Shown piece by piece: positions 1,118-23,260 of a stretch of 64,000 nt of DNA; position 1 is the stretch's first letter, and every line of letters begins with the position of its first letter. Position numbers and translations under genes: made by a program. Source of the DNA: Gimesia sp. (GTDB lineage Bacteria > Planctomycetota > Planctomycetia > Planctomycetales > Planctomycetaceae); NCBI GenBank assembly GCA_002706765.1, contig PAJV01000005.1:6462-70461 (forward strand), read 5' to 3'. Below the pieces are notes generated by a model that worked only from the letters and a program-made list of their open reading frames with translations, had not been told where the DNA came from and searched no databases.

Positions 1118-3952
1118 TCAATCGATATATTGAAATTCGGCCAGATTGAAGATCGCGTGACAATAATTGGTCAGCGATTTCCGCGCTGCAGCGTCTGCTC
1201 CGGTTGCGGAATTTGTTTTCATCCATTCCTGCTTCAACGCATGCATTGTTTCCACGCCCAGCGACATTTCTTCCGGAGACGCCTCGCGGCCCAATGCCAG
1301 ACGGTAGATCTGTTTCAACTGATCGGCCGGTCTGTTGCCCGCCTGATTGTGGATTCGGTCAGCAAATTCAGTCGCCAGTCGATGCACCAGTTGATCGTTC
1401 AACATGTGTAAGGCCTGGGTGGCGACCAGCGAATCGCCGCGTCGAATGCAGTTTGGTCCCATCTGCGGGTAGTCAAAATTTTCCAGCAGTGTCGGTATCT
1501 GTGTGCGGCGCTGCAACACATAGATGCTTCTCCGCCAGCCTTGTTCGGAAGCCAGGGAAGTCACCAGTCCATCACGGCGCACGTCCACCGGATCAGCCGG
1601 GCCGTAAGGAGTTTCATCCAGCTGGCCTGACAGGTAGAGCAATGTATCACGGAGCACTTCGCCTTCCATTCTCCTTAAAGGCATCCGCGAGAGCAGGCTG
1701 CCATCCGGGTCTTTTCGCAAAGCCTCATCCGAGACCATTGAAGTCTGCCGATAGGTTTCTGAAGTCACCAGCAGTCGATGCAGGGACTTCAGTCTCCAGC
1801 CCTGTCGTACAAACTCCGTCGCCAGCCAGTCCAGCAGTTCCGGGTGAGAGGGGCGTTCTCCCGCCCGTCCAAAGTTCTCCGGTGTCTTGACAATTCCTCT
1901 GCCAAAATGATGCATCCAGATACGATTGACCATGACCCGCGCAGTCAGGGGATGATCCGGCTGAGTCAACCAGCGGGCAAACGCCAGACGTCGGCCGCCT
2001 TGACTCTCTTTCTGACTGCTCCGGGCAATTACTTCCAGCGGATTTTGGTTACGGGCGAGTACCGCGGGCACACCCGGTTCGACCGGACGTCCGGGTGTGA
2101 GATAATTGCCGCGTTTCAAAATATAACTGGGCGAAGGAGTACCCCTTGACCATAGTGCGCGAATCCGTGGTGCAGGCTGCTTTCTGGCTTGTATCGCCTT
2201 GATCTGTTGCTGTAACTGATCGCATTTCTGTTGATATTGCGGATCGGCTTCCTCTAATGATTTTGCCTGTTTCTCAATCTGCAATTTCCGAGCCTGCTCT
2301 GTCAGTGTTGCAATTTCCTGATTGATCTGTTGCACTTCGGCAGCCAGCTTCCGTTCCCGTTGATGATATTTGTCGCGCTCAGCCTGCGGGAGGTGAGCCA
2401 GGGTTCGCGGCCCCTGCGACTTCAGCCAGTCGTGTTCATCGTAGGCTTCTTTAAAGATCGCAGTCAGGCGATAGTAATCTCGTTGGGGAATCGGATCAAA
2501 CTTATGGGAATGACAGCGGGCACATTTCATGGTTAAACCCAGGACTGCTGAACCCAGGATGTCCATTTCGTCCGCAATCACTTCCAGTCGATCCGGGACA
2601 AAGTTCGTAATGTCCGCAAACGTACGGTCGGGAGCGGTCCGCAGGAAACCTGTTGCGACCAAACAATCATAAACTTCCGGTGTGATCTCGCCCGACTGGT
2701 AATCGACCAGTTCATCGCCGGCGATCTGCTCCATTAAAAAACGGGAGTACGGTTTGTCTTCATTCAGCGCCCGAATGACATAATCACGATAGCGGTACAT
2801 GTGGGGCCGCAGTTTGTCTTCATTCTGTGCCCCTTCAGAATCGGCATAGCCGGCGGCATCCAGCCAGTGTCGTGCCCAGCGTTCGCCATAGCGGCGGGAA
2901 GCGAGCAGGCGATCAACCAGCTTTTCATAAGCACGTGGATCGGTATCATTGAGAAACTGTTCGATTTCCTCAGGCAGCGGAGGCAACCCGGTCAGGTCGA
3001 AATAGAGGCGGCGAATTAACGTTCGTTTGCTGGCAGCTGGTGACAGGCTCAGGCCGTGTTGTTCCAGTCGCTGCAAAATAAATGCATCGATCGGATTCCG
3101 GGCCCGCTCCTGTCCCTTCACTACTGGTGGCGTCGGCTGCCGGGGAGGTTGAAATGACCAGAAATTTCGATCTGCTTCTGTGACCAGTTCTGTTTCCTCA
3201 GTTCGCAGTGATTCCACTTCCGGTAATTTCAGGGCAATCCACTGCGAAAGCAGTTCCCGCTCATTGTCCTGCATCGGTTTGACGCTGGCTGAAACCAGCT
3301 TACGCGGCGGGGGCATTTCGCCTGCGTGAATCCGTTTGATTAACAGGCTGCCCGACGGGTCGCCCGGTTTGATAGCCGGGCCGGACTTGCCTCCTTTCAG
3401 AATCGAAGCTTTGGTTCGCAGATCCAGGCTGGCTTCCTGGCGACGGCCTCCATGACAGGCAACACATCGCAGATGGAGCAGGGGGATAATGTCGTGCTGT
3501 GTGACCGCAGGCGCTGTTTTAACGGTCTCTCGAAAGCGGGCACCGGAATTGAGCCAGTGACGCAACTGCTGGAGTTCCTCCTGACTGAGATGATTTTTCT
3601 CCTCGGGCGGCATTTCTGCTGACTCGATCATCTGAAACAACAGACTGGCATCTGCGTCTCCCGCCTGGATGATTCGTCCCGACTCACTCCCTTTCAGAAT
3701 GCTTTCGGGAGAACTCAGATCCAGGCCCGCTTTCCTGGTTTTGGCATTGTGACAGCCGAGGCACTTCTCCTGGAAAAGCTGCTGGATATTGCTTTCATAG
3801 AAAACAGGTGTTTGCGCAGCAGCTTCTTCGACCTCTGCAGCGAGTGAGGGAATCGCGACGCAGAACAGGACCGCTATCAAACCTGTTCGCTGGAATAACA
3901 GCGTGCAATGTTCTCTGATCGATGCAGGGGGCTTCACAGGCGGAATCTCCAT
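1118..3952 (-). CDS. PSCyt1-PSCyt2(DUF1549)-PSD1(DUF1553) diheme exported protein
   Basis: Large planctomycete-type cytochrome protein of about 944 residues. A hydrophobic signal (GLIAVLFCVAIPSLAAE, about residues 24-40) is followed by two c-type heme sites: CLGCH at about residues 64-68 and CVACHGG about 100 residues later. Each is followed by the GLDLS/SLDLR...ILKGG...G pattern of the PSCyt1 domain. A third CxxCH (CARCHSH) lies in the DUF1549 region, then DUF1553 (WLTQPDHPLTARVMVNRIW) to the C-terminus. Such proteins are presumed periplasmic redox or polymer-processing factors; their substrate is unknown. The ATG at 3952 is preferred because longer versions run into the upstream transporter gene and put extra sequence before the signal peptide. 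It sits between that transporter and the DUF1501 gene in one minus-strand run. Confidence 0.9.
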   Translation of the reverse strand: MEIPPVKPPASIREHCTLLFQRTGLIAVLFCVAIPSLAAEVEEAAAQTPVFYESNIQQLFQEKCLGCHNAKTRKAGLDLSSPESILKGSESGRIIQAGDADASLLFQMIESAEMPPEEKNHLSQEELQQLRHWLNSGARFRETVKTAPAVTQHDIIPLLHLRCVACHGGRRQEASLDLRTKASILKGGKSGPAIKPGDPSGSLLIKRIHAGEMPPPRKLVSASVKPMQDNERELLSQWIALKLPEVESLRTEETELVTEADRNFWSFQPPRQPTPPVVKGQERARNPIDAFILQRLEQHGLSLSPAASKRTLIRRLYFDLTGLPPLPEEIEQFLNDTDPRAYEKLVDRLLASRRYGERWARHWLDAAGYADSEGAQNEDKLRPHMYRYRDYVIRALNEDKPYSRFLMEQIAGDELVDYQSGEITPEVYDCLVATGFLRTAPDRTFADITNFVPDRLEVIADEMDILGSAVLGLTMKCARCHSHKFDPIPQRDYYRLTAIFKEAYDEHDWLKSQGPRTLAHLPQAERDKYHQRERKLAAEVQQINQEIATLTEQARKLQIEKQAKSLEEADPQYQQKCDQLQQQIKAIQARKQPAPRIRALWSRGTPSPSYILKRGNYLTPGRPVEPGVPAVLARNQNPLEVIARSSQKESQGGRRLAFARWLTQPDHPLTARVMVNRIWMHHFGRGIVKTPENFGRAGERPSHPELLDWLATEFVRQGWRLKSLHRLLVTSETYRQTSMVSDEALRKDPDGSLLSRMPLRRMEGEVLRDTLLYLSGQLDETPYGPADPVDVRRDGLVTSLASEQGWRRSIYVLQRRTQIPTLLENFDYPQMGPNCIRRGDSLVATQALHMLNDQLVHRLATEFADRIHNQAGNRPADQLKQIYRLALGREASPEEMSLGVETMHALKQEWMKTNSATGADAAARKSLTNYCHAIFNLAEFQYID

Positions 3953-12658: not shown

Positions 12659-15600
12659 ATGTGTGCTTCCACTGATCAGGAACAGGTTGCTCCCGCAGAA
12701 AAACAACATCGATTCACAAATGAGCCGCCTGCTTTCTGGCGATCACTGTTGTTGAAAAATACTCTGTTTGTGGCAGCCGTCGTGGTACTCAGTGGCGGGG
12801 TCCTCGGTCATCTGGCTTATGTTGCCGCTCGTGAGATTATTCACGACAACATTCATCTCCGACTGCAGCTGGTTGTGACAGACCGGGCCGCCCTGTTCGA
12901 AGAATATGTCAAACAGCAGCTGGAACGTTCAGCGCTGGTGACGAATCGTACCAGCCTGCATGAATTGATCCACAGGTTCAACCAGGGAGAGATCGACCTG
13001 GATTCATTTCGCGAGCAATCGCAGCGTATTCTGGAGGACACCAAATTTGGAAGTTCATCGGGTTTCCGTGATCTATGGATTGTCAACCCGCAGGGAACCG
13101 TGATTACCGCGACCAATGCTGATTATTTGAGTAAGACCTACGCCGGCGATCCTGGTTTTCTTGAAGGCAAAGAGCATCCCCGCCTGGATCTGCCCCAGGA
13201 AGTAAATGGCCGCGCTCTGACTTATCTGGTGGCCCCCATGAATGATGAAGCGGGCAACCTGCTGGGGGTGCTCATGGTCTGGCTCGATGTGACCCCGCTC
13301 AAAGACATTTTGATGAATCGAGTGGGCTTGCAGGAAACCGGTGATTTACTGGTGGCGACCAAGCAGGGAGATCACGTTCGCTATCTCTTCCAGCCGCGCG
13401 ACAGTGATGCCTGGTCGGTTCCGATCTCGGAAGTACCGGCGATGGCCAAAGCCCTGCAGGACGAGAGTGGATCAGAGGTGATGGATTACAGTGGTGAGCG
13501 GGTCCTGGTCTCTTATCGCCCCGTGAATTATCAGCCGGACCTGGAAGCACCCTGGGGAATGGTAGCCAAAATCAACCTGGATGAAGCTTACGCACCTGTG
13601 ACGTATCTCCGTAAACATCTGTTGTTGATACAGCTGGGGCTGGTGTTTTTCGGTATGGCTGCTTCCTTTCTCGTTGCCCGTCGTTTTACCCGACCGGTGC
13701 TGGGGCTGGCGACTTCTGCTGCGAAAATTGCCAAAGGGAATCTGGATGTCCGGGTTCCCAGCACCTCTTCCGATGAAGTAGGTTTGCTCGGAGCCGCTTT
13801 TAACCACATGGCAGAGGAACTGTCGGCTTCTCGTGATGAACTGGAAGACAGGATTGATCAACGGACGGCTGAATTAAAAGCATCGCAGAAACAGCTCAGA
13901 CGGCAGTCTCAGATTCTGCAGTCCATTCTGGACAGTATGGGCGATGGTGTGATCGTAGCGGACCAGGACGGGAATTCGGTCTTCTGGAATCCGGCGGCAG
14001 AGCAGATCGTCGGCATTGGTCCGCAGAATGTTGATCCCGACAAGTGGTCACAGATTTATGGATGTTACCTGGCTGATGGGAAAACCATGTGCCCCTCCCA
14101 GGATCTGCCCCTGGCCCGGGCGATGCGGGGAGAATCGCTGGATGGAGTTGTGCTGTACCTGGAGAATCCGGATATCCCGGAAGGGACCTGGATCAGCGTT
14201 ACAGCGCGTCCTCTCCGGAATGACCGTGGCGAATTGCGCGGCGGCGTCATTGTGATGCGGGATATTACCGAGACGCGGGCCAACCAGGAAGAGCTGGAAT
14301 CACGGGATAAGAAGAACCGTGCCATCCTGGCGACCACGCATGAAGCGTTTGTGGGGATCAATGAAAAGAGCATTATCTGTGAGTGGAATGATCAGGCTGA
14401 GGTGACATTTGGCTGGTCTCCTGCTGAAGCGATCGGGCGCTCCCTGGAAGAGACGATTATTCCCGAACGCTACTGGCTGCAGCACATGCATGGAATCGAA
14501 CATTATCTCCGGTCAGGTGAAGGCCCTTTCCTCAACAGGCGACTGGAACTCTCAGCCATGCATCGGGACGGTCACGAATTTCCTGTTGAACTGACGATTA
14601 CACCGGTGCCCCAGGGAAATGGATTTCTGTTCGCCGCCTTTGTGCATGATATCACCGAAGAAAAAAGGGCGGGGGAAGAGCTCAGACAGGCGAAAGAAGC
14701 AGCCGAGGCCGCCAGCCGTGCGAAAAGTGCTTTCCTGGCAACCATGAGCCACGAAATCCGCACTCCCATGAATGCCGTCATCGGGATGACGCAACTGCTG
14801 CTTGATACGAAACTCGATTCTACACAACATGAGTATCTGACGATGGTGCAGGAGTCCGGAGAATCGCTGCTTTCCGTGATCAATGATATTCTTGATTTCT
14901 CGAAAATCGAGGCAGGGCGGTTTGATCTTGAGAAGACGCCGTTCCATCTGCGGGAAAATCTGGGAGATACCATGAAGTCTCTCGCAGTCCGCGCGCATCA
15001 CAAACATCTGGAACTCGCTTTTCACCTTGACGCGGATGTCCCGGATACGCTTGTCGGCGATCGTTTCCGACTGCGTCAGATCATCGTTAACCTGGTTGGT
15101 AACGCCATTAAATTCACCGAGGAAGGTGAAATTGTTCTGGATGTGAAACTGGATTTCCGGTCAAAGAAAGAACTGCAACTGCACTTTATTGTTCGCGATA
15201 CCGGAATCGGCATTCCGGAGGACAAACAGCAGCAGATCTTTCAGGCATTTGAACAGGTCGATGAATCGATAACCCGTCGCTTCAGTGGCACGGGGCTGGG
15301 GCTGGCAATTTCCTCACGTCTGATTGAAATGATGGGGGGACAGATCTGGGTTCACAGTGAAGTCGGCAAAGGAAGTGAATTTCATTTTACTGCCCGCTTC
15401 GGATTGACAGAGGCCGAAATTCCACTGAATGACCCCCTGATGAAAGTAGACCTTGATGGTTTACGGGTGCTGATTGTAGATGACAATCACACCAACTGCC
15501 AGATTCTTGAAGAGATGCTGAAGAGCTGGAACATGCAGACACAGTCCATCAATCGTGGTAGCGATACCCTGGATGTCATGCGCGCCGGCCAACAGGCGGG

Positions 15601-16753
15601 GCAACCGTTTGATCTGGTGCTGGTCGATGCCAATATGCCGATCATGGATGGCTATTCTGTCGCAAAATCCATCAAGCAGGATGCCGCGCTGGGTAGTGCA
15701 GTCATCATGATGATTACATCCAGTGATCGCCAGGGAGAAATAGCTCGCTGCAAAGAACTCGGGATCGCCGCTCATCTGATAAAACCGTTAAAGCAATCTG
15801 AACTGTACAACTCGATTGCAGAGACGCTGGGAATGAACGGAGAACCGCAACACAATACGCGCACTGCAACCTCTGAGCTGGCACGGCGGATTCCACCACT
15901 CAATATTCTGCTGGCGGAAGACAGCCTGGTGAATCAGAAACTGGCGCTGGCGCTATTGGAACCCCATGGTCATGATGTGGCTGTTGTGCTGAATGGCAAA
16001 GACGCCGTTGAAGAACGGAAAAAACGCGATTTTGATCTGGTGCTCATGGATGTGCAGATGCCTGAGATGGACGGCCTGGAAGCGACGCGCCTGATTCGGG
16101 AATACGAGCAGGAAACGGGTGAGCATGTTCCCATTGTCGCGATGACCGCCCACGCCATGAAGGGAGACCGCGAGCGTTGCCTGGAAGCGGGCATGGATGG
16201 TTACGTTTCCAAACCGGTTCGCGTCAGAGAATTGTATTCGACCATCGAAGACTGTCTGCACCTGAATCCGGCAGCAGCTCTGACGGACGAAATACCAGTT
16301 TACGAAATGCATGAAGAGGGGGAGGGGGAAGCCATGAGTGAATCCAGCAACGATTCAGCAGACAGAGAACCGGAAAAAGATCACGCTGCAGATACAGAGA
16401 GCATTATTGACTGGCAGCAGGCGATGGAAAAATCAGAAATTCCCGTTGAATCACTCAATGAACTGGGCCAGATCTTTCTGACAGAGGCGCCTCGCTTATT
16501 GTCAGAAATCAGGGAAGCTTTGAAAGACAATGATGCCCAGTCACTCAGACGTGCTGCCCATACCCTTAAAAGTTCGGCAGCCCTGTTTGAAGCACATCCT
16601 GCCGCCGCCGCAGCCCTGAAACTGGAACTGCTGGGGAAGGAAAAAAAACTGAGCGAAGCCAGGGAGGCATTAGAGAATCTGGACAGGGAATTCGATCGAT
16701 TGCTACCGGCGGTCGCAGCGCAGATTGATTCCACGACTTCTGAAAAGGAATGA
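12659..16753 (+). CDS. Hybrid sensor histidine kinase (sensor-HAMP-PAS-PAS-HisKA-HATPase-REC-REC-HPt)
   Basis: About 1364 residues, an inner-membrane sensor and full phosphorelay in one chain. TM1 at about 29-56, a periplasmic Cache-like sensor region to about 320, TM2 near 325-345 and HAMP at about 340-400. Two PAS domains start near 419 and 554. HisKA has SHEIRTP with the phospho-His near residue 697; the ATPase has an N box near 810, DTGIGIP near 846 and GTGLGL near 877. Receivers 1 and 2 carry phospho-Asp in LVDANMP (about 986) and LMDVQMP (about 1127); the HPt has AAHTLKSS (about 1299). All key residues are present, so it should be active. It ends 3 bp before the receiver-glutamate dehydrogenase gene, which makes that fusion its most likely phosphorylation target. 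The sensed signal is unknown. Confidence 0.95.
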   Translation: MCASTDQEQVAPAEKQHRFTNEPPAFWRSLLLKNTLFVAAVVVLSGGVLGHLAYVAAREIIHDNIHLRLQLVVTDRAALFEEYVKQQLERSALVTNRTSLHELIHRFNQGEIDLDSFREQSQRILEDTKFGSSSGFRDLWIVNPQGTVITATNADYLSKTYAGDPGFLEGKEHPRLDLPQEVNGRALTYLVAPMNDEAGNLLGVLMVWLDVTPLKDILMNRVGLQETGDLLVATKQGDHVRYLFQPRDSDAWSVPISEVPAMAKALQDESGSEVMDYSGERVLVSYRPVNYQPDLEAPWGMVAKINLDEAYAPVTYLRKHLLLIQLGLVFFGMAASFLVARRFTRPVLGLATSAAKIAKGNLDVRVPSTSSDEVGLLGAAFNHMAEELSASRDELEDRIDQRTAELKASQKQLRRQSQILQSILDSMGDGVIVADQDGNSVFWNPAAEQIVGIGPQNVDPDKWSQIYGCYLADGKTMCPSQDLPLARAMRGESLDGVVLYLENPDIPEGTWISVTARPLRNDRGELRGGVIVMRDITETRANQEELESRDKKNRAILATTHEAFVGINEKSIICEWNDQAEVTFGWSPAEAIGRSLEETIIPERYWLQHMHGIEHYLRSGEGPFLNRRLELSAMHRDGHEFPVELTITPVPQGNGFLFAAFVHDITEEKRAGEELRQAKEAAEAASRAKSAFLATMSHEIRTPMNAVIGMTQLLLDTKLDSTQHEYLTMVQESGESLLSVINDILDFSKIEAGRFDLEKTPFHLRENLGDTMKSLAVRAHHKHLELAFHLDADVPDTLVGDRFRLRQIIVNLVGNAIKFTEEGEIVLDVKLDFRSKKELQLHFIVRDTGIGIPEDKQQQIFQAFEQVDESITRRFSGTGLGLAISSRLIEMMGGQIWVHSEVGKGSEFHFTARFGLTEAEIPLNDPLMKVDLDGLRVLIVDDNHTNCQILEEMLKSWNMQTQSINRGSDTLDVMRAGQQAGQPFDLVLVDANMPIMDGYSVAKSIKQDAALGSAVIMMITSSDRQGEIARCKELGIAAHLIKPLKQSELYNSIAETLGMNGEPQHNTRTATSELARRIPPLNILLAEDSLVNQKLALALLEPHGHDVAVVLNGKDAVEERKKRDFDLVLMDVQMPEMDGLEATRLIREYEQETGEHVPIVAMTAHAMKGDRERCLEAGMDGYVSKPVRVRELYSTIEDCLHLNPAAALTDEIPVYEMHEEGEGEAMSESSNDSADREPEKDHAADTESIIDWQQAMEKSEIPVESLNELGQIFLTEAPRLLSEIREALKDNDAQSLRRAAHTLKSSAALFEAHPAAAAALKLELLGKEKKLSEAREALENLDREFDRLLPAVAAQIDSTTSEKE

Positions 16754-16756
16754 ACC

Positions 16757-18415
16757 ATGAATACAGCATCAGGGAATACAGTAAAGGTACTTCTGATCGA
16801 GGATAATCCGATTCATGTCGGGTTGGTGAAAACCTTACTCGCAGAATCAAAAACGCCCGTCTTTCAACTCCAGTATGCAGGGACGTTACAGGCGGGATTG
16901 AATCAACTGGATTCGTCTGCCGTGGACGTGGTACTCCTCGACCTGACACTGCCTGACAGTGAGGACCTGGATACTTTTATCAGGGTACGTTCCTTTGCCC
17001 CCGCGATCCCCATTGTGATTGTGACCAGTCTGGATGATGTCAAACTGGCTGCCAAAGCGGTGGAAGCGGGAGCGCAAGATTACATGGTGAAGACGCAGCT
17101 CAGCCGAACTTCGCTGATTCGTTCGCTCCGCTATGCGATTGAACGGACCAGGGTACGCGATGCGGAATGGGATTCACCCATGTTTCGACTGGCCCAGCGA
17201 CAGTTTCTGAAAGCCGCTCAATTCATGGGCCTGGATGATAATATCAGGCAGCGGCTGTTATTCCCCCAGCGAACCCTGGTAGTCACATTACCTTTTCGAC
17301 GGGATCATTATACTGAAGTCGAGACAGTCTTCGGATATCGAGTCCAGCACATTCTGACGATGGGGCCAACAAAGGGGGGGATCCGGTATCACCAGGATGT
17401 GAGCCTGGGAGAAGTCTCAGCCCTGGCGATGTGGATGAGCTGGAAATGTGCACTGGTGCATCTCCCATTTGGGGGAGCGAAAGGGGGCGTGCGTATCGAC
17501 CCGACCGGATTAACCAGCCACGAACTGCAGCGTTTGACGAGACGGTTCGCTACAGAGATCAGCCCGATCATCGGCCCTGATAAAGATATTCCTGCGCCCG
17601 ATATGGGAACGAATGAGCGGGTGATGGCGTGGATTATGGATACCTACAGCCAGGAAGTGGGTTATACCGTACCCGCCGTGGTTACCGGAAAACCGGTGGT
17701 ACTGGGGGGAGCCCGGGGCAGAAATGAAGCAACAGGCCGCGGTGTGGTTTACCTGATTCAGGAAGCGGCGAAGCACCTGAAAATGAACCTGAGTGAATGC
17801 ACGGCAGTGGTTCAGGGGTTTGGAAATGTCGGCAGCCATGCGGCTCTGTTTTTGAGTGAACTGGGAGTTAAAATCATTGGTGTAAGCGATGCCACAACCG
17901 GCATTCACAATCGGCATGGATTATCCATTCCCTCTTTGCTGGAATATGTCGCCGAAAACCGGTTTCTGGAAGGGTATCCCGAGGGAGATCACATCAGCAA
18001 TGAGGAATTGCTGGAGTTGAAGTGCGATATCCTGGTTCCTGCCGCGCTGCAGAATCAGATTACAGCAGAGAATGCCGACCGGATTCAATGCAAGCTGCTG
18101 GCAGAAGGTGCGAACGGACCGACGACTCTGGAAGCGGATGAAGTACTCAATGAAAAAGGGGTCTTTATCCTGCCCGATATTCTGGCAAACGCCGGGGGTG
18201 TGACGGTATCTTATTTTGAATGGGTGCAGGATACGCAGAATTATATGTGGAGCCTGGACGAAGTGAATGAGCGGCTGCACCGGATTCTTAAAGACGCCTT
18301 TCACAGGACGCTGAATCGGGCAGAGAAGCATCAGTTTGATATGCGGACCGCCGCCATGATCGAAGGGGTCGAACGTGTCGCCCAGGCCAAACTGGCCAGG
18401 GGACTATATCCCTGA
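16757..18415 (+). CDS. Response-regulator receiver fused to glutamate dehydrogenase
   Basis: A single 552-residue frame. Residues about 9-130 are a complete CheY-like receiver: acidic pair E15/D16, phospho-acceptor D62 (VLLDLTLPD), T90 and K112. After a short linker, residues about 142-552 are a full-length Glu/Leu/Phe/Val dehydrogenase: GPTKGGIRYH (K206), K230, LPFGGAKGG (catalytic-type K242), DIPAPDMGT (D282) and a GFGNVG dinucleotide loop at 354-359. The enzyme family interconverts glutamate and 2-oxoglutarate plus ammonia in the cytoplasm. AAGGA lies 7 bp upstream of the ATG, and only 3 bp separate it from the hybrid kinase, so the two are almost certainly translated together. Phosphorylation probably adjusts dehydrogenase activity or assembly, but this is inference. 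M142 could be an internal start for a free dehydrogenase. Confidence 0.95.
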   Translation: MNTASGNTVKVLLIEDNPIHVGLVKTLLAESKTPVFQLQYAGTLQAGLNQLDSSAVDVVLLDLTLPDSEDLDTFIRVRSFAPAIPIVIVTSLDDVKLAAKAVEAGAQDYMVKTQLSRTSLIRSLRYAIERTRVRDAEWDSPMFRLAQRQFLKAAQFMGLDDNIRQRLLFPQRTLVVTLPFRRDHYTEVETVFGYRVQHILTMGPTKGGIRYHQDVSLGEVSALAMWMSWKCALVHLPFGGAKGGVRIDPTGLTSHELQRLTRRFATEISPIIGPDKDIPAPDMGTNERVMAWIMDTYSQEVGYTVPAVVTGKPVVLGGARGRNEATGRGVVYLIQEAAKHLKMNLSECTAVVQGFGNVGSHAALFLSELGVKIIGVSDATTGIHNRHGLSIPSLLEYVAENRFLEGYPEGDHISNEELLELKCDILVPAALQNQITAENADRIQCKLLAEGANGPTTLEADEVLNEKGVFILPDILANAGGVTVSYFEWVQDTQNYMWSLDEVNERLHRILKDAFHRTLNRAEKHQFDMRTAAMIEGVERVAQAKLARGLYP

Positions 18416-18586: not shown

Positions 18587-21121
18587 TTACTGTGTGTAAC
18601 GCGCCACAATTTCTATCAGTTCTTTGGTGTTGATCGGCTTACTGAGAAATGCATCACAGCCACTGGCGAGACACCGGTTCATATCACCGTGCATGGCGTC
18701 CGCAGTAAGTGCAATAATCGGTCTGTTAAAGCCGAGGCTACGCAGCCGTTCTGCCGTCTGGTATCCATCCAGCCTTGGCATCTGCATGTCCAGCAGAATC
18801 ATATCAAACGAGTTTTGTCCCTGTTCTACCCGTTCGATGGCTTCCAGACCATCATTGACCGATTCGACTTCTGCTCCCGACTTTGTCAGAAACTGTTTGA
18901 CGAGATAACGGATATCACGACGGTCGTCGACGACCAGCACATTGCAGGACAAAGCGGGTTGCGTATCCAGTGATTTGGATGTGTCAGGCGTTGATTTGTG
19001 TTTTTTCTCCGGGTGGACCATCGGAACAGAGTCGACCTGTCCGGCACTGATTTTACAGGTGAAAGTGGTGCCGATTCCGGGTTGGCTGGTGACCTCGATA
19101 TTTCCACCCAGCATGCGGGCCAGACGCGCGCTGATGGCCAGCCCCAGTCCGGTTCCTCCAAAAGAGCGGGTTACGGAAGTGTCACCTTGTGAGAATTCCT
19201 GGAAGAGCTGGGAAAGCTGTGCCTCTGTGATCCCGATACCGGTATCAATCACATCAAACTGAATGACCGGACACTCGCCCGAGGCATCGTAGGAGATGAC
19301 CAGTCGAATTGAACCTCTGGATGTGAATTTAACCGCATTGCCAATCAGGTTGACTAAGATCTGCCTTAGACATTTCGGGTCACTTTCAATCTGGCTGGGG
19401 ATGGTGGTCGCGTATTCGACACTGAAATCGAGTTGCTTTTCTACAGCGCGAACCTGCATCATCGAAAACACGTCTGCGATCAGCTCATCCGCGGCAAACC
19501 GTTCCGTCACGCATTCCATCTTACCCGCTTCGATTTTGGAGAGGTCCAGAATATCATTGATGATATCCAGCAGGAAACTCCCGTTTTTCTGAATCATGCG
19601 CAGGTGTTTCAATTTTTCCGGATCATTCTCGGCACCGGCAAGCAGGTCGGCGTAACCCAGAACGGCTGTCATCGGGGTGCGTATTTCATGACTCATGTTG
19701 GCAACAAATTCACTCTTGGCAGCACTCGCCTGTTGTCCGATTTTATACAGGCGGGCATTGTCGATCGCGATGGATGCCCGCCGCGCCAGTTCTTCGGCTG
19801 TCTTGAAGTCAATGATTTTGTGACGCAGTGCAGGGTCGGTCTGAATCAGAGATAAAACACCAAACTGCTGATCACGGATACCCAGGGAGACGACAATCAA
19901 TGATTGAGCGCCAAGCTTCCGCAGTGCAGGGAGATGCTCCGGTGTCTGGACGATTTCACCGAGTAACTCAGCTGTCAGGTTCTCTACAAAAATGGTTTCA
20001 TCGCCAAACAGATGTGGGCTGGAAGACCGATCTTTCTGTCGGGGATCGGAATCAGTTTTCATCAGCTGATCTGCCAGCACCGAGTCACCTGGATCTGCAT
20101 GTGCAATTTTCATACGCCGGACTGTATGGTCATCACTGATCAGTTCCAGGATCGCCCAGTCTCCTAACGTGGGGACACATAACGACGTGACACTTTCCAG
20201 TGTCGTTTCAAAATCGAGCGATGATGCGAGCGTCATGGTTGCTTCACTCAGAAACCGTTCGATTTCGGCTGTACGCTGTTCGAGTTTTTCCTGAACTTTT
20301 TCTGCGGTAATATCCCAGAAGAGTCCGGCAAAATGACTGGGATTCCCCATTTCCCATTCCACAGATTCCCCCATCAACTCCATCCACCTCGGTTCTTTAC
20401 CGGAATGGATGATGCGAAATTCTTCTTGAAAAGCCTGCCTTTTCCTGACGGATGTTTCCCAGACTTCCCGGAGCTTCGGTAAATCCTCGGGGTGGATCGT
20501 GGAATAAAATCGTTCCAGCGTGACAGGTTCTCCCGCAGGTATCCCCAGCAGATCGTAGATTGCATCGGACCAGTACAGGTTATCGTATTGCAACTCCCAG
20601 GCTGCCATACCTCCTGCCTTCAGTGCCAGAGAAAAACGTCTTTGCTGAATCTCCAGGTTCTGATTGACTTCATGCCGCTCTTTCAGCAGATTACGCACGC
20701 TATATTGGCGTTGCCGGTCTCGAAGATTGGCCCGGATCGTATTAATAAAGACTGCTATCCGAACGGGTCGCCGAATCAGGGTGATGTTCCCCAGTTCCTG
20801 CAGCTGATTGAGTGAAGGCGAGGCATGCTCACCAGCTATCAGTAAGACGACAATGGGAAGATCAGACCATGCCGGTTGATGCGACAGTAATTCCGGTATC
20901 AGACCAGTATGGTCAGTTTGCAGATATTCTTCTGCGATCAAAGCGACGGCAGCATTGCCCTGCTTCACCTGTTGGCAAAGATCCTGCAGGCTGGTGCAAA
21001 CGTGCGTTTCAATTCTGGCATCTCCCAGAACATTCACGCAAAACTCATTGTCTTTCGGGGTCGGAGCCAGAATCAGTACACAGAGACTGTCGGAATCCTC
21101 TGCCACTGATTCTTTATTCAT
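18587..21121 (-). CDS. Hybrid histidine kinase with N-terminal pseudo-receiver (PsR-PAS-GAF-HisKA-HATPase-REC)
   Basis: About 844 residues, cytoplasmic, with no membrane segment. Residues about 13-145 have the shape of a receiver (CVLILAPTPKDNEF ... WSDLPIVVLLIAG ... RRPVR), but the phospho-acceptor strand reads ALIAEEYL without Asp, so it is a pseudo-receiver. A PAS domain (about 165-290, ending FAGLFWDITAEK) and a GAF domain (about 310-470) follow. HisKA is at MSHEIRTP near 477, the ATPase has DTGIGI and GTGLGLAIS, and a C-terminal REC has LLDMQMP near 777. GGGGAGAG precedes the ATG at 21121, and the coding region overlaps the end of the KaiC-like gene by 8 bp, so translation is coupled. 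An interaction with the KaiC-like ATPase is probable. Confidence 0.93.
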   Translation of the reverse strand: MNKESVAEDSDSLCVLILAPTPKDNEFCVNVLGDARIETHVCTSLQDLCQQVKQGNAAVALIAEEYLQTDHTGLIPELLSHQPAWSDLPIVVLLIAGEHASPSLNQLQELGNITLIRRPVRIAVFINTIRANLRDRQRQYSVRNLLKERHEVNQNLEIQQRRFSLALKAGGMAAWELQYDNLYWSDAIYDLLGIPAGEPVTLERFYSTIHPEDLPKLREVWETSVRKRQAFQEEFRIIHSGKEPRWMELMGESVEWEMGNPSHFAGLFWDITAEKVQEKLEQRTAEIERFLSEATMTLASSLDFETTLESVTSLCVPTLGDWAILELISDDHTVRRMKIAHADPGDSVLADQLMKTDSDPRQKDRSSSPHLFGDETIFVENLTAELLGEIVQTPEHLPALRKLGAQSLIVVSLGIRDQQFGVLSLIQTDPALRHKIIDFKTAEELARRASIAIDNARLYKIGQQASAAKSEFVANMSHEIRTPMTAVLGYADLLAGAENDPEKLKHLRMIQKNGSFLLDIINDILDLSKIEAGKMECVTERFAADELIADVFSMMQVRAVEKQLDFSVEYATTIPSQIESDPKCLRQILVNLIGNAVKFTSRGSIRLVISYDASGECPVIQFDVIDTGIGITEAQLSQLFQEFSQGDTSVTRSFGGTGLGLAISARLARMLGGNIEVTSQPGIGTTFTCKISAGQVDSVPMVHPEKKHKSTPDTSKSLDTQPALSCNVLVVDDRRDIRYLVKQFLTKSGAEVESVNDGLEAIERVEQGQNSFDMILLDMQMPRLDGYQTAERLRSLGFNRPIIALTADAMHGDMNRCLASGCDAFLSKPINTKELIEIVARYTQ

Positions 21122-22625
21122 GCTCTCTCCCCAGCAGGTTTGAGATTTTGCCGGTGTAAGTGGGGGTACCACTGAGAATTCCCTGGAATTCGTCTAAAGG
21201 ATCACCCACCCGAATAATGCCATCACGCATCTGAAATTCACGTATCGTCCGCTCATGAGAGCCCGTTCGTTTCTTTACCACTGAAATCGCCTGTCGTAAC
21301 TCGCCCCCTGCTTCAAAATAACGAAACAGGATGACCGCATCTGCCAGGTAACTGGCATCGACGGGGGAAGCCATGGTCCCCAGCATCCCATGCTGGGCGA
21401 CGACCAGAAACGTGAGGATTTTCTGTCTGGCCAGTGTCTTGAGGATTTCGTGCATTTGCACGATCAGAAAACGCTCATGGGGCATCGCGTTCATATACCC
21501 GTTTAAACTGTCGATAACCACGACAGAAACTCGTCTGCCATCTTCGCTGGGGCGGATGGCTTCGCGTATCTGGCAGGCAAATTCACCCGGCAGTAACTCT
21601 CCTGGATCCTGTTGATGGATGACAATGTTTCCAGAATCGAGATGTTCCTGGAGTGGCATATTCAAACTGTCAGCACGCTCCATGAGGACTTCACGAGTTT
21701 CATCGAAGATAAAAAAGACCGCTTTTTCGCCACGGGTCGCCGCGGAAATCGCATACAGCATGGCAGTCGATGATTTACCGACTCCTGCCGGCCCCATGAG
21801 CAGGGTACTTGTTCCGGGGGAGAGTCCGCCGCCAACCAGTTGGTCTAAAGATTCGTTTCCACTCAAAACGAGCGGGAAACTGGAACTTTCAACTGGTTGT
21901 TCCTGGCCTTTACGGGGAAACAGGTTTATGCCTCCCGTCAACAACTGAAAGTCGTGATTTCCGCCCTGGAACTTCTGGCCTCGATGTTTAATCACCCTCA
22001 GCCGACGACGTTCCCCCCCGTAATCTCCCATCATGTGTTCCAGACGGATCACGCCATGCGCAATACTTTGTAACTGCTGATCGGCATCATGGGCGGTATT
22101 ATCGTCGAGCATGAGTACCGTGCAGCTGCGTCCGGTAAAAAAATGTTTGAGGGCCAGGATCTGGCGGCGATAACGCAGGGGACTCTGAGCCAGCAGCCTC
22201 ATTTCCGAAAGCGAATCGAAGGCAACACGCATGGGCTTGCTGCGTTCAACATGTTCCAGCACCCCGCGTATTGTTTTACTTAATTCCACTTCGGATGGTT
22301 CGAACATGGAATACTGTGACTCATTGGAATCTACCAGATCTTTTGCATCTACGAGTTCGTAAACATCAAGATCTTTCATACTCCAGCCGTGCGAAGCAGC
22401 AACCGCTTCCAACTCCTCTTTGGTTTCAGACAGTGTTACGTATAAACCCGTCTCTCCCTTTCTGGCCCCTTCCAGCAGAAACTGGAGGGCGAGGGTGGTC
22501 TTGCCCGTCCCCGGGTCACCTTCGATTAAATAAACACGACCGGATGTGAGTCCACCTTCAAGAATGGTGTCTAGTGCATGATTTCCTGTCTGCACCATCT
22601 GGTCACGATTTGAATCTTTCATCAT
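21114..22625 (-). CDS. KaiC-like double RecA-domain ATPase
   Basis: About 503 residues with two KaiC-type ATPase domains. Domain 1 has GDPGTGKTT (about residue 38) with LYVTLSETKEEL; domain 2 has GPAGVGKSS (about 280) with VFFIFDETREVL and VVVIDSLNG (about 368). KaiC proteins are hexameric ATPases; the cyanobacterial clock protein autophosphorylates on adjacent Ser and Thr in domain 2. Aligned by eye, that site reads DASYLADAV here, keeping the Ser but with Tyr for Thr. No kaiA or kaiB is in the window. The frame extends upstream to 22745, but the ATG at 22625 directly precedes the conserved start of domain 1. The hybrid kinase gene begins inside its last codons. Confidence 0.92.
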   Translation of the reverse strand: MMKDSNRDQMVQTGNHALDTILEGGLTSGRVYLIEGDPGTGKTTLALQFLLEGARKGETGLYVTLSETKEELEAVAASHGWSMKDLDVYELVDAKDLVDSNESQYSMFEPSEVELSKTIRGVLEHVERSKPMRVAFDSLSEMRLLAQSPLRYRRQILALKHFFTGRSCTVLMLDDNTAHDADQQLQSIAHGVIRLEHMMGDYGGERRRLRVIKHRGQKFQGGNHDFQLLTGGINLFPRKGQEQPVESSSFPLVLSGNESLDQLVGGGLSPGTSTLLMGPAGVGKSSTAMLYAISAATRGEKAVFFIFDETREVLMERADSLNMPLQEHLDSGNIVIHQQDPGELLPGEFACQIREAIRPSEDGRRVSVVVIDSLNGYMNAMPHERFLIVQMHEILKTLARQKILTFLVVAQHGMLGTMASPVDASYLADAVILFRYFEAGGELRQAISVVKKRTGSHERTIREFQMRDGIIRVGDPLDEFQGILSGTPTYTGKISNLLGREHE

Positions 22626-23260
22626 CGTTCTCTCGCATTCACTTAACTGTTTTATTCGAAAAGTAATCAGGTTGAGTGTGATGTCTGGTTCTGTAGTCCC
22701 ACAGAAAAAAGCATCCGCCGGACCACTTTCTGGATCTATCTTCACAATAAGGTGAGGTAGCTCCTCAGGTTAAATACACCCACGCCTGTTAATTTATTAT
22801 CAGCAGGTCGATACTTTCTGTCTACAGGCTTCCAGGGAAAAGCCACTATACCATAGAGACATTCTGGGAAAAAAACAGGACATGCGATATTTTTTCGCAG
22901 TGACTTCAGAGGATGGGAAAGCAGAGATAATAATGCTCCCGGTAACCTGTTTTTTGGAAGCCTGCGGGATGAGAACTCCTGAAAAACAAGGGGAAATAAC
23001 GTCCTGAGAATCCCCACGTCATCCCTGTCACGATTTAAGAACAGAATTGAAAAATGTACTCTTCGGCATCAGTTGCATTTCAGCCGTAGACATTTTGTCG
23101 CAGTCTCGGAAATATAAGGCAAAGTGGCATGCACAGTTTCGACATCGAAAAGGAAGGGGAGGGAAAACGAATCAGGAAAGCAGGATCGATCAGTTGGCAC
23201 TTCGAAAAATCCGATGCGCCGCTCGAAATGCCGTGGGCCTCAATAAGTGGAATCGGCGGA
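22626..23260. other. 635-bp intergenic region upstream of the KaiC-like gene
   Basis: No convincing gene is present; short open frames on both strands lack ribosome sites, family motifs or codon bias. It must contain the promoter of the KaiC-like/kinase operon and the 3' end signal of the PPC-domain gene, but I could not identify either with confidence. Confidence 0.5.

Follow-up and report, generated by a model that had tools for sequence, protein, structure and literature searches.

A 64,000-nucleotide stretch of DNA from the planctomycete Gimesia sp. (contig PAJV01000005.1), here called the window, contains two adjacent genes that may together form a phosphorelay ending on a metabolic enzyme. 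The first encodes a membrane hybrid histidine kinase with two receiver (REC) domains and a histidine phosphotransfer (HPt) domain at its C-terminal end; the second is a single open reading frame (ORF), encoding 552 amino acids, in which a receiver is joined to a full-length glutamate dehydrogenase (GDH). Their features are listed in Table 1. Three base pairs lie between the stop codon of the kinase (16751–16753) and the ATG of the fusion (16757), and the sequence AAGGA stands a short way 5' of that ATG, within the 3' end of the kinase gene. A preliminary description, made from the sequence alone, had claimed an intact receiver and a full-length GDH in one frame, this spacing, and the residues D62, T90, K112, K206, K230, K242, D282 and GFGNVG (354–359). 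Pfam domains and the ORF confirm the first of these claims, and the spacing and every residue are as it gave them.

Table 1. Features of the kinase and REC-GDH genes, in window coordinates.
Feature	Position	Strand	Basis
Membrane hybrid histidine kinase, TM-dCache_1-TM-HAMP-PAS-PAS-HisKA-HATPase-REC-REC-HPt (TM, transmembrane segment)	12659..16753	+	Pfam, hydrophobicity
dCache_1 sensor, probably extracytoplasmic	12836..13564	+	Pfam E 4.6e-20; hydrophobic peaks on either side
HisKA, H-box histidine H698 (14750-14752)	14720..14917	+	Pfam, residues
HATPase_c	15056..15397	+	Pfam
REC1 (D941, D990, K1042) and REC2 (D1088, D1131, K1185), both intact	15461..16246	+	Pfam (two stretches), residues; REC1 edges approximate
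HPt, H1301 (16559-16561), from which D62 of the fusion is proposed to receive its phosphoryl group	16469..16702	+	Pfam E 2.1e-14, residue
REC-GDH fusion protein, 552 aa	16757..18415	+	ORF, translation, Pfam
Receiver: E15, D16, D62 (16940-16942), T90, K112	16787..17098	+	Pfam, conservation
Junction: REC alpha5 117-135, 5-residue linker 136-140, first GDH helix 141-157	17105..17227	+	AlphaFold2, alignment
GDH domain I (ELFV_dehydrog_N): K206, K230, K242, D282	17264..17650	+	Pfam, alignment
GDH dinucleotide-binding part (ELFV_dehydrog): GFGNVG 354-359, S485	17705..18403	+	Pfam, alignment

Within the fusion protein, Pfam recognises Response_reg at residues 11–114 (E 3.7e-16; 59.7 bits against a cut-off of 30.2), ELFV_dehydrog_N at 170–298 (E 2e-51) and ELFV_dehydrog at 317–549 (E 1.8e-84). 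The N-terminal part is accordingly classed as a response-regulator receiver, by its predicted fold and the full set E15/D16/D62/T90/K112, and the C-terminal part as a small, presumably hexameric GDH of the ELFV family, by both domains together with K206, K230, K242, D282, S485 and the dinucleotide motif, which we take to be its catalytic residues. Named NCBIfam equivalogs are approached from below their cut-offs (GdhA_Arch 482 of 750 bits, GdhB_Halo 481 of 620, PRK09414 281 of 536), so that the enzyme is, as judged by these scores, a relative of all three and a member of none.

An alignment of 23 fusions, nine of them from the genus of the window, has D62 and K112 invariant throughout and E15/D16 invariant in all 22 that are readable there; T or S occupies position 90 in all but one of the 23. 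The constancy of D62 rules out an Asp-less receiver. On the GDH side, K206, K230, K242 and D282 are invariant in the 23, as are S485 and G354 and G356–G359 of the GFGNVG motif in a 24-row alignment; one fusion outside the latter (L126) has GFGNVA. Nine plasmid-borne fusions agree at all these receiver and GDH positions. From K112 to the start of the GDH there is not one insertion or deletion among 14 representative fusions. Purifying selection on the receiver is indicated by its dN/dS in seven of the nine genus fusions (21 pairs, most with dS near or past saturation): 0.008–0.076 in the pairs with finite values, 0.037–0.054 in three pairs with dS of 0.66–0.83 and 0.017 in a pair with dS of 0.20.

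The kinase could start at ATG 12530 (1407 amino acids) or, as the preliminary description has it, at ATG 12659 (1364 amino acids), the frame being open from 12530; residues are numbered here from 12659. Hydrophobic peaks near residues 30–57 and 320–341 flank the dCache domain, and an external signal is therefore likely. With HisKA, HATPase, receivers and HPt all present, and phospho-sites that look intact at H698, D990, D1131 and H1301, the protein falls by its sequence into the hybrid kinases with HPt (unorthodox or tripartite). The preliminary description had rightly called it a membrane hybrid kinase ending in REC-REC-HPt, with a Cache-like domain, but had under-described it, as Pfam recognises dCache_1, HAMP and two PAS domains. 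BarA- and TorS-like kinases share the HisKA-HATPase-REC-...-HPt layout; the window kinase differs from them in its two receivers and its dCache sensor, and reaches 558 bits against NCBIfam BarA, below the cut-off of 890.

It had also to be considered that the frame joining was an assembly error or a chance event absent from relatives. Recurrence in the genus and the conserved alignment rule this out: with the window genome counted, 9 of the 17 genus genomes have a full fusion, and the eight others (of 16) carry it at full length with 90–96% identity, five of them in one-contig assemblies. Across a phylum-wide sample, 12 of 392 genomes, again counting the window genome, have a fusion at 63% identity or more; the count covers listed matches extending into the receiver, with the best three candidates scored per genome, and two of the 12 (G313 and G240) sit at contig ends. 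Four additional genus fusions and that of G027 come from a separate search and lie beyond these 12. A scan of a genome collection yielded at least six full fusions among the 80 loci listed; they are in metagenome-assembled genomes (MAGs) labelled Planctomycetaceae, Gemmatimonadetes, Latescibacterota and Gammaproteobacteria, in bacterium RI_301 and in the isolate Aestuariicella hydrocarbonica. The Gemmatimonadetes and Latescibacterota fusions are close to each other, and one of the two labels may thus be wrong. Among 369 genomes of the class to which the genome of L039 belongs, only that genome itself has a match at E 1e-170 or better.

Plasmids extend this range. In a search of 72,556 plasmid records, 13 reach a query coverage of 80% with E values of 1e-100 or better, and the nine at 1e-150 that were examined all have a whole-length fusion of 65.5–67.0% identity; the hosts are Sinorhizobium fredii (seven, including pNGR234b of strain NGR234 and related plasmids), S. 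chiapasense and Ensifer adhaerens. On E. adhaerens pCTYH.Ch1_2 (L158, 1–7281), a fumarate hydratase gene precedes the fusion and its kinase by about 0.7 kb. Some 5 kb upstream of that gene are others annotated as methylaspartate mutase and methylaspartate ammonia-lyase, which gives a context of glutamate degradation. Separately, G430, G431 and G432 (genome completeness is not given) yielded no PF00208 match other than the fused GDH, so that interconversion of glutamate and ammonia by this family may there be wholly under receiver control.

Genomic linkage supplies evidence for a partner. The fusions were grouped into 11 lineages whose neighbours could be judged (G313 lies at a contig edge), and in six of them an HPt protein adjoins the fusion. 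The kinase is upstream in all nine cases in the window genus (one cut by a contig end) and in L039, downstream in L035/L036 and in all nine Sinorhizobium/Ensifer records (two with the kinase in split frames), and convergent with the fusion in L038. G240 has a hybrid kinase, then a small HPt gene, then the fusion, with a contig end on the other side. This free-standing HPt gene (L135, about 1710–2052, forward strand) is antisense to 145 additional N-terminal residues in the frame of the G240 fusion, an extension that for this reason was treated as spurious. As a control, none of 64 readable unfused GDH loci (of 74) has a kinase or HPt protein within three genes; 6 of 11 versus 0 of 64 gives a hypergeometric p of 2.3e-6, a naive value because the lineages are not independent. 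The linked HPt is the sole PF01627 match of the genome in G431 and G432, and one of 5 to 12 in the other linked genomes tested.

Within the genus the two genes also come and go together. A kinase ortholog is present in all nine genomes with the fusion and in none of the eight without it, two of the latter being only 74–76% complete. Examination covered four genomes in which the pair is missing and the PQQ-propeller gene on its upstream side is retained. Both flanks remain in G013 and G016, from which kinase and fusion are missing as a unit, the flanks being 68 bp apart in G013 and separated in G016 by one ORF with no match in the window; in G004 and G011 different genes follow the PQQ-propeller gene.

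The linked kinases do not share a sensor. That of the window has dCache-HAMP-PAS-PAS, those of Sinorhizobium and Ensifer have PAS_7 twice, that of L039 has DUF4154 (YfiR-like), and that of G240 a V4R match under its cut-off; no sensor domain was recognised in L035, L036 or L038. The same GDH output is thus probably driven by different signals. A tree of the kinase cores unites L035/L036, L039 and Sinorhizobium (support 96/95), and places the window genus with the best, unlinked kinase of the L034 genome (92/88), two clades that mirror the GDH tree; the L038 kinase lies elsewhere. A search of the window genome with the L039 kinase ranks the window kinase first, and searches with the window kinase likewise rank the linked kinase first in G431, G432, G434 and G435.

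How a phosphorylated receiver might act on the enzyme is suggested by an AlphaFold2 model (m300888a2e9c7, 24 rows; pLDDT 85.1, pTM 0.82), in which receiver helix alpha5 leads through five residues into the first GDH helix. Among solved structures the closest matches are GDHs with no fused receiver, at 54% identity or less, and no REC-GDH structure occurs among the 60 listed of 106 matched sequences of the Protein Data Bank (PDB), where the best stretch starts at query residue 141 or later. The GDH of Thermotoga maritima (1b26), RocG and GudB of Bacillus subtilis and plant GDH1 have the fold and catalytic residues in common with the fusion at 45–54% identity, but lack its receiver. In Arabidopsis GDH1, according to the sections of PMC7326016 that deal with the open and closed states, the helix at the N-terminus of domain I has a different bend in each, and closure is required for catalysis. 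Because this helix bends by state, we propose that phosphorylation acts on the first GDH helix through alpha5.

We consider it probable, on the sequence evidence assembled here, that the genes encode a complete phosphorelay in which GDH is joined to the final receiver, and that phosphorylation acts via the first GDH helix on the balance of open and closed enzyme. A ligand would act on the dCache domain of the kinase, H698 would then be phosphorylated, and the phosphoryl group would pass via the internal receivers to H1301 of the HPt domain and on to D62 of REC-GDH. The change at the output face of the receiver would be passed via alpha5 and the fixed five-residue linker into the first GDH helix, shifting the open/closed equilibrium of the hexamer and changing the rate at which glutamate and 2-oxoglutarate plus ammonia are interconverted. 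That a relay ends on GDH is indicated by the intact parts, the conserved junction, the genetic linkage and the joint presence and absence in the genus; the phosphotransfer to D62 and the helix-to-helix route are what we infer from them. Whether phosphorylation raises or lowers activity is a finer question, on which we lean slightly towards a rise.

The fixed length of the linker and the conserved passage from alpha5 into the GDH helix also bear on another possibility, namely that the receiver sets the location or the partners of the GDH and not its catalysis, by docking to the membrane kinase, another enzyme or a complex of the glutamate synthase (GOGAT) kind, or by promoting higher assemblies. 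Receivers commonly dimerise or bind partners, and the fold search returned a complex of glutamate synthase and GDH as counter-enzymes (7mfm). The junction, however, suits intramolecular coupling better than a free tether, and we regard control by location as unlikely.

The direction of flow might instead be reversed or two-way, with the GDH reporting the state of glutamate, 2-oxoglutarate and NADH and the receiver serving the kinase as a metabolically tuned phosphate sink. Transfer through HPt domains is reversible, the kinase has a second receiver without an assigned role, and nothing in the analysis tells the directions apart. A sink would nevertheless have no visible nearby target, since the linked lineages that were read show no second response regulator directly next to the pair (targets farther away were not sought); we hold this alternative to be very unlikely.

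Several observations weigh against the proposed relay. No kinase stands beside the fusion in five of the 11 lineages (the G049/G057/G377/G421 group, G396, G027, L034 and L037); in G057 a receiver protein and a kinase lie four to five genes away. On the GDH tree, two events could be enough to explain the adjacency of kinase and fusion. The linked kinases do not form a single clade (three changes are needed); several unlinked planctomycete kinases resemble the window kinase no less than some linked ones do; and the linked kinase of G240 is not among the matches listed for the window kinase. The best-match argument for a unique partner lost weight as unlinked planctomycete kinases score equally high, and the partnership consequently rests on linkage, not on similarity. 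In G433, which is outside the control, an unfused GDH lies two genes from a REC-REC-HPt kinase. T90 is replaced by V in G396 (L126), the linker block 131–140 has a modest mean pLDDT of 65, receiver dN exceeds GDH dN in 18 of 21 pairs, mostly two- to threefold, and six unfused GDHs stand at four distinct places within the clade of the fusions. The window genome encodes two further GDHs, and the effect of the fusion on the cell may hence be limited.

Some of these points, namely the unfused relatives, the lineages with no adjacent kinase and the loss of T90 in L126, would be expected if the receiver were a relic, or a module for folding or oligomerisation in which phosphorylation is irrelevant. 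Against this stand the invariance of D62 and K112, purifying selection on the receiver, and linkage and joint presence and absence with HPt kinases, and the alternative seems to us very improbable. For the route from HPt to D62 and GDH with the adjacent kinase as driver, which the preliminary description had predicted from gene spacing, the invariant receiver residues, the HPt linkage (six of 11 lineages) and the joint presence and absence amount to strong, if indirect, support. The interpretation as a whole is borne out in part, as the idea that the kinase is always adjacent had to be rejected.

At the G433 locus (L141, 841–7768), the unfused GDH has 487 amino acids and lies downstream of the kinase, which has 1270 residues. 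As judged from the sequence, the kinase includes several segments resembling PAS domains, and the gene between the two is UspA-like; the same genome holds a REC-GDH fusion at another place.

In a GDH tree of 121 rows, 23 fused and the six unfused rows group together in a single clade (full SH-aLRT support), and the GDH of this clade thus also exists without a receiver. The fused label needs two changes, as it does in a 31-row tree that includes the plasmids; there a single fused clade occurs in 3% of bootstrap trees and is not rejected by the approximately unbiased (AU) test (p 0.288). The simplest reading of these trees is one fusion event followed by losses and transfer between phyla; two separate events are possible. 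No hidden receiver was recognised upstream of two close unfused relatives (G030 = L040; G022 = L118), and an early stop in its GDH frame suggests that the G022 copy may be defective or contain a sequencing error.

Enzymes that carry a fused receiver are of a known kind. Response regulators with enzymatic output include the methylesterase CheB, the GGDEF, EAL and HD-GYP proteins and PP2C phosphatases, often with the kinase gene adjacent. These resemble REC-GDH in having an N-terminal phospho-receiver on a catalytic domain, but act on proteins or second messengers, whereas here the output is an enzyme of central nitrogen metabolism. The preliminary description had known of no characterised example. 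Our literature searches, in which censuses of response regulators were outside the scope, likewise found no REC-GDH described or assayed; the combination as such is nonetheless already catalogued, as Table 1 of the P2CS paper of 2009 (PMC2716373), which covers enzymes that occur in two-component proteins, includes EC 1.4.1.3 (GDH), marked ‘Probable’, an entry left undescribed in that section. A functional parallel is PknG/GarA, through which, in the portions of PMC5448819 and PMC8175468 concerned with it, an external amino-acid signal controls mycobacterial GDH post-translationally; that system uses a Ser/Thr kinase, a separate FHA protein and a 180-kDa GDH, in contrast to the putative His-Asp relay, fused receiver and small GDH of the window.

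We think it reasonably likely that the fusion and its kinase form a metabolic switch of two genes, transferred between phyla, with interchangeable sensors, GDH as terminal output and direct, fast, post-translational His-Asp control of the point where carbon and nitrogen metabolism branch. Two-component systems are mostly associated with the control of transcription, motility and second messengers. The relay proposed here appears to end, under sensors as varied as dCache, PAS_7, YfiR-like and sub-threshold V4R, on the enzyme at which carbon and nitrogen metabolism meet; if so, it would represent a class of response-regulator output that acts on central metabolism and needs neither transcription nor second messengers. 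It raises the question of whether a His-Asp relay can set the flux through a core metabolic enzyme, and the occurrence in S. fredii NGR234 places the system in a tractable legume symbiont in which nitrogen economy matters.

Two genes at 18587–22745 on the reverse strand of the window point towards the fusion; they encode a KaiC-like double ATPase (543 amino acids) and a PAS-HisKA-HATPase-REC hybrid kinase (861 amino acids, with GAF below cut-off), the end of the former overlapping the start of the latter. This pair is not found in G001, G005, G009, G010 or G012; G008 and G014 have a like pair, as judged by position and length.

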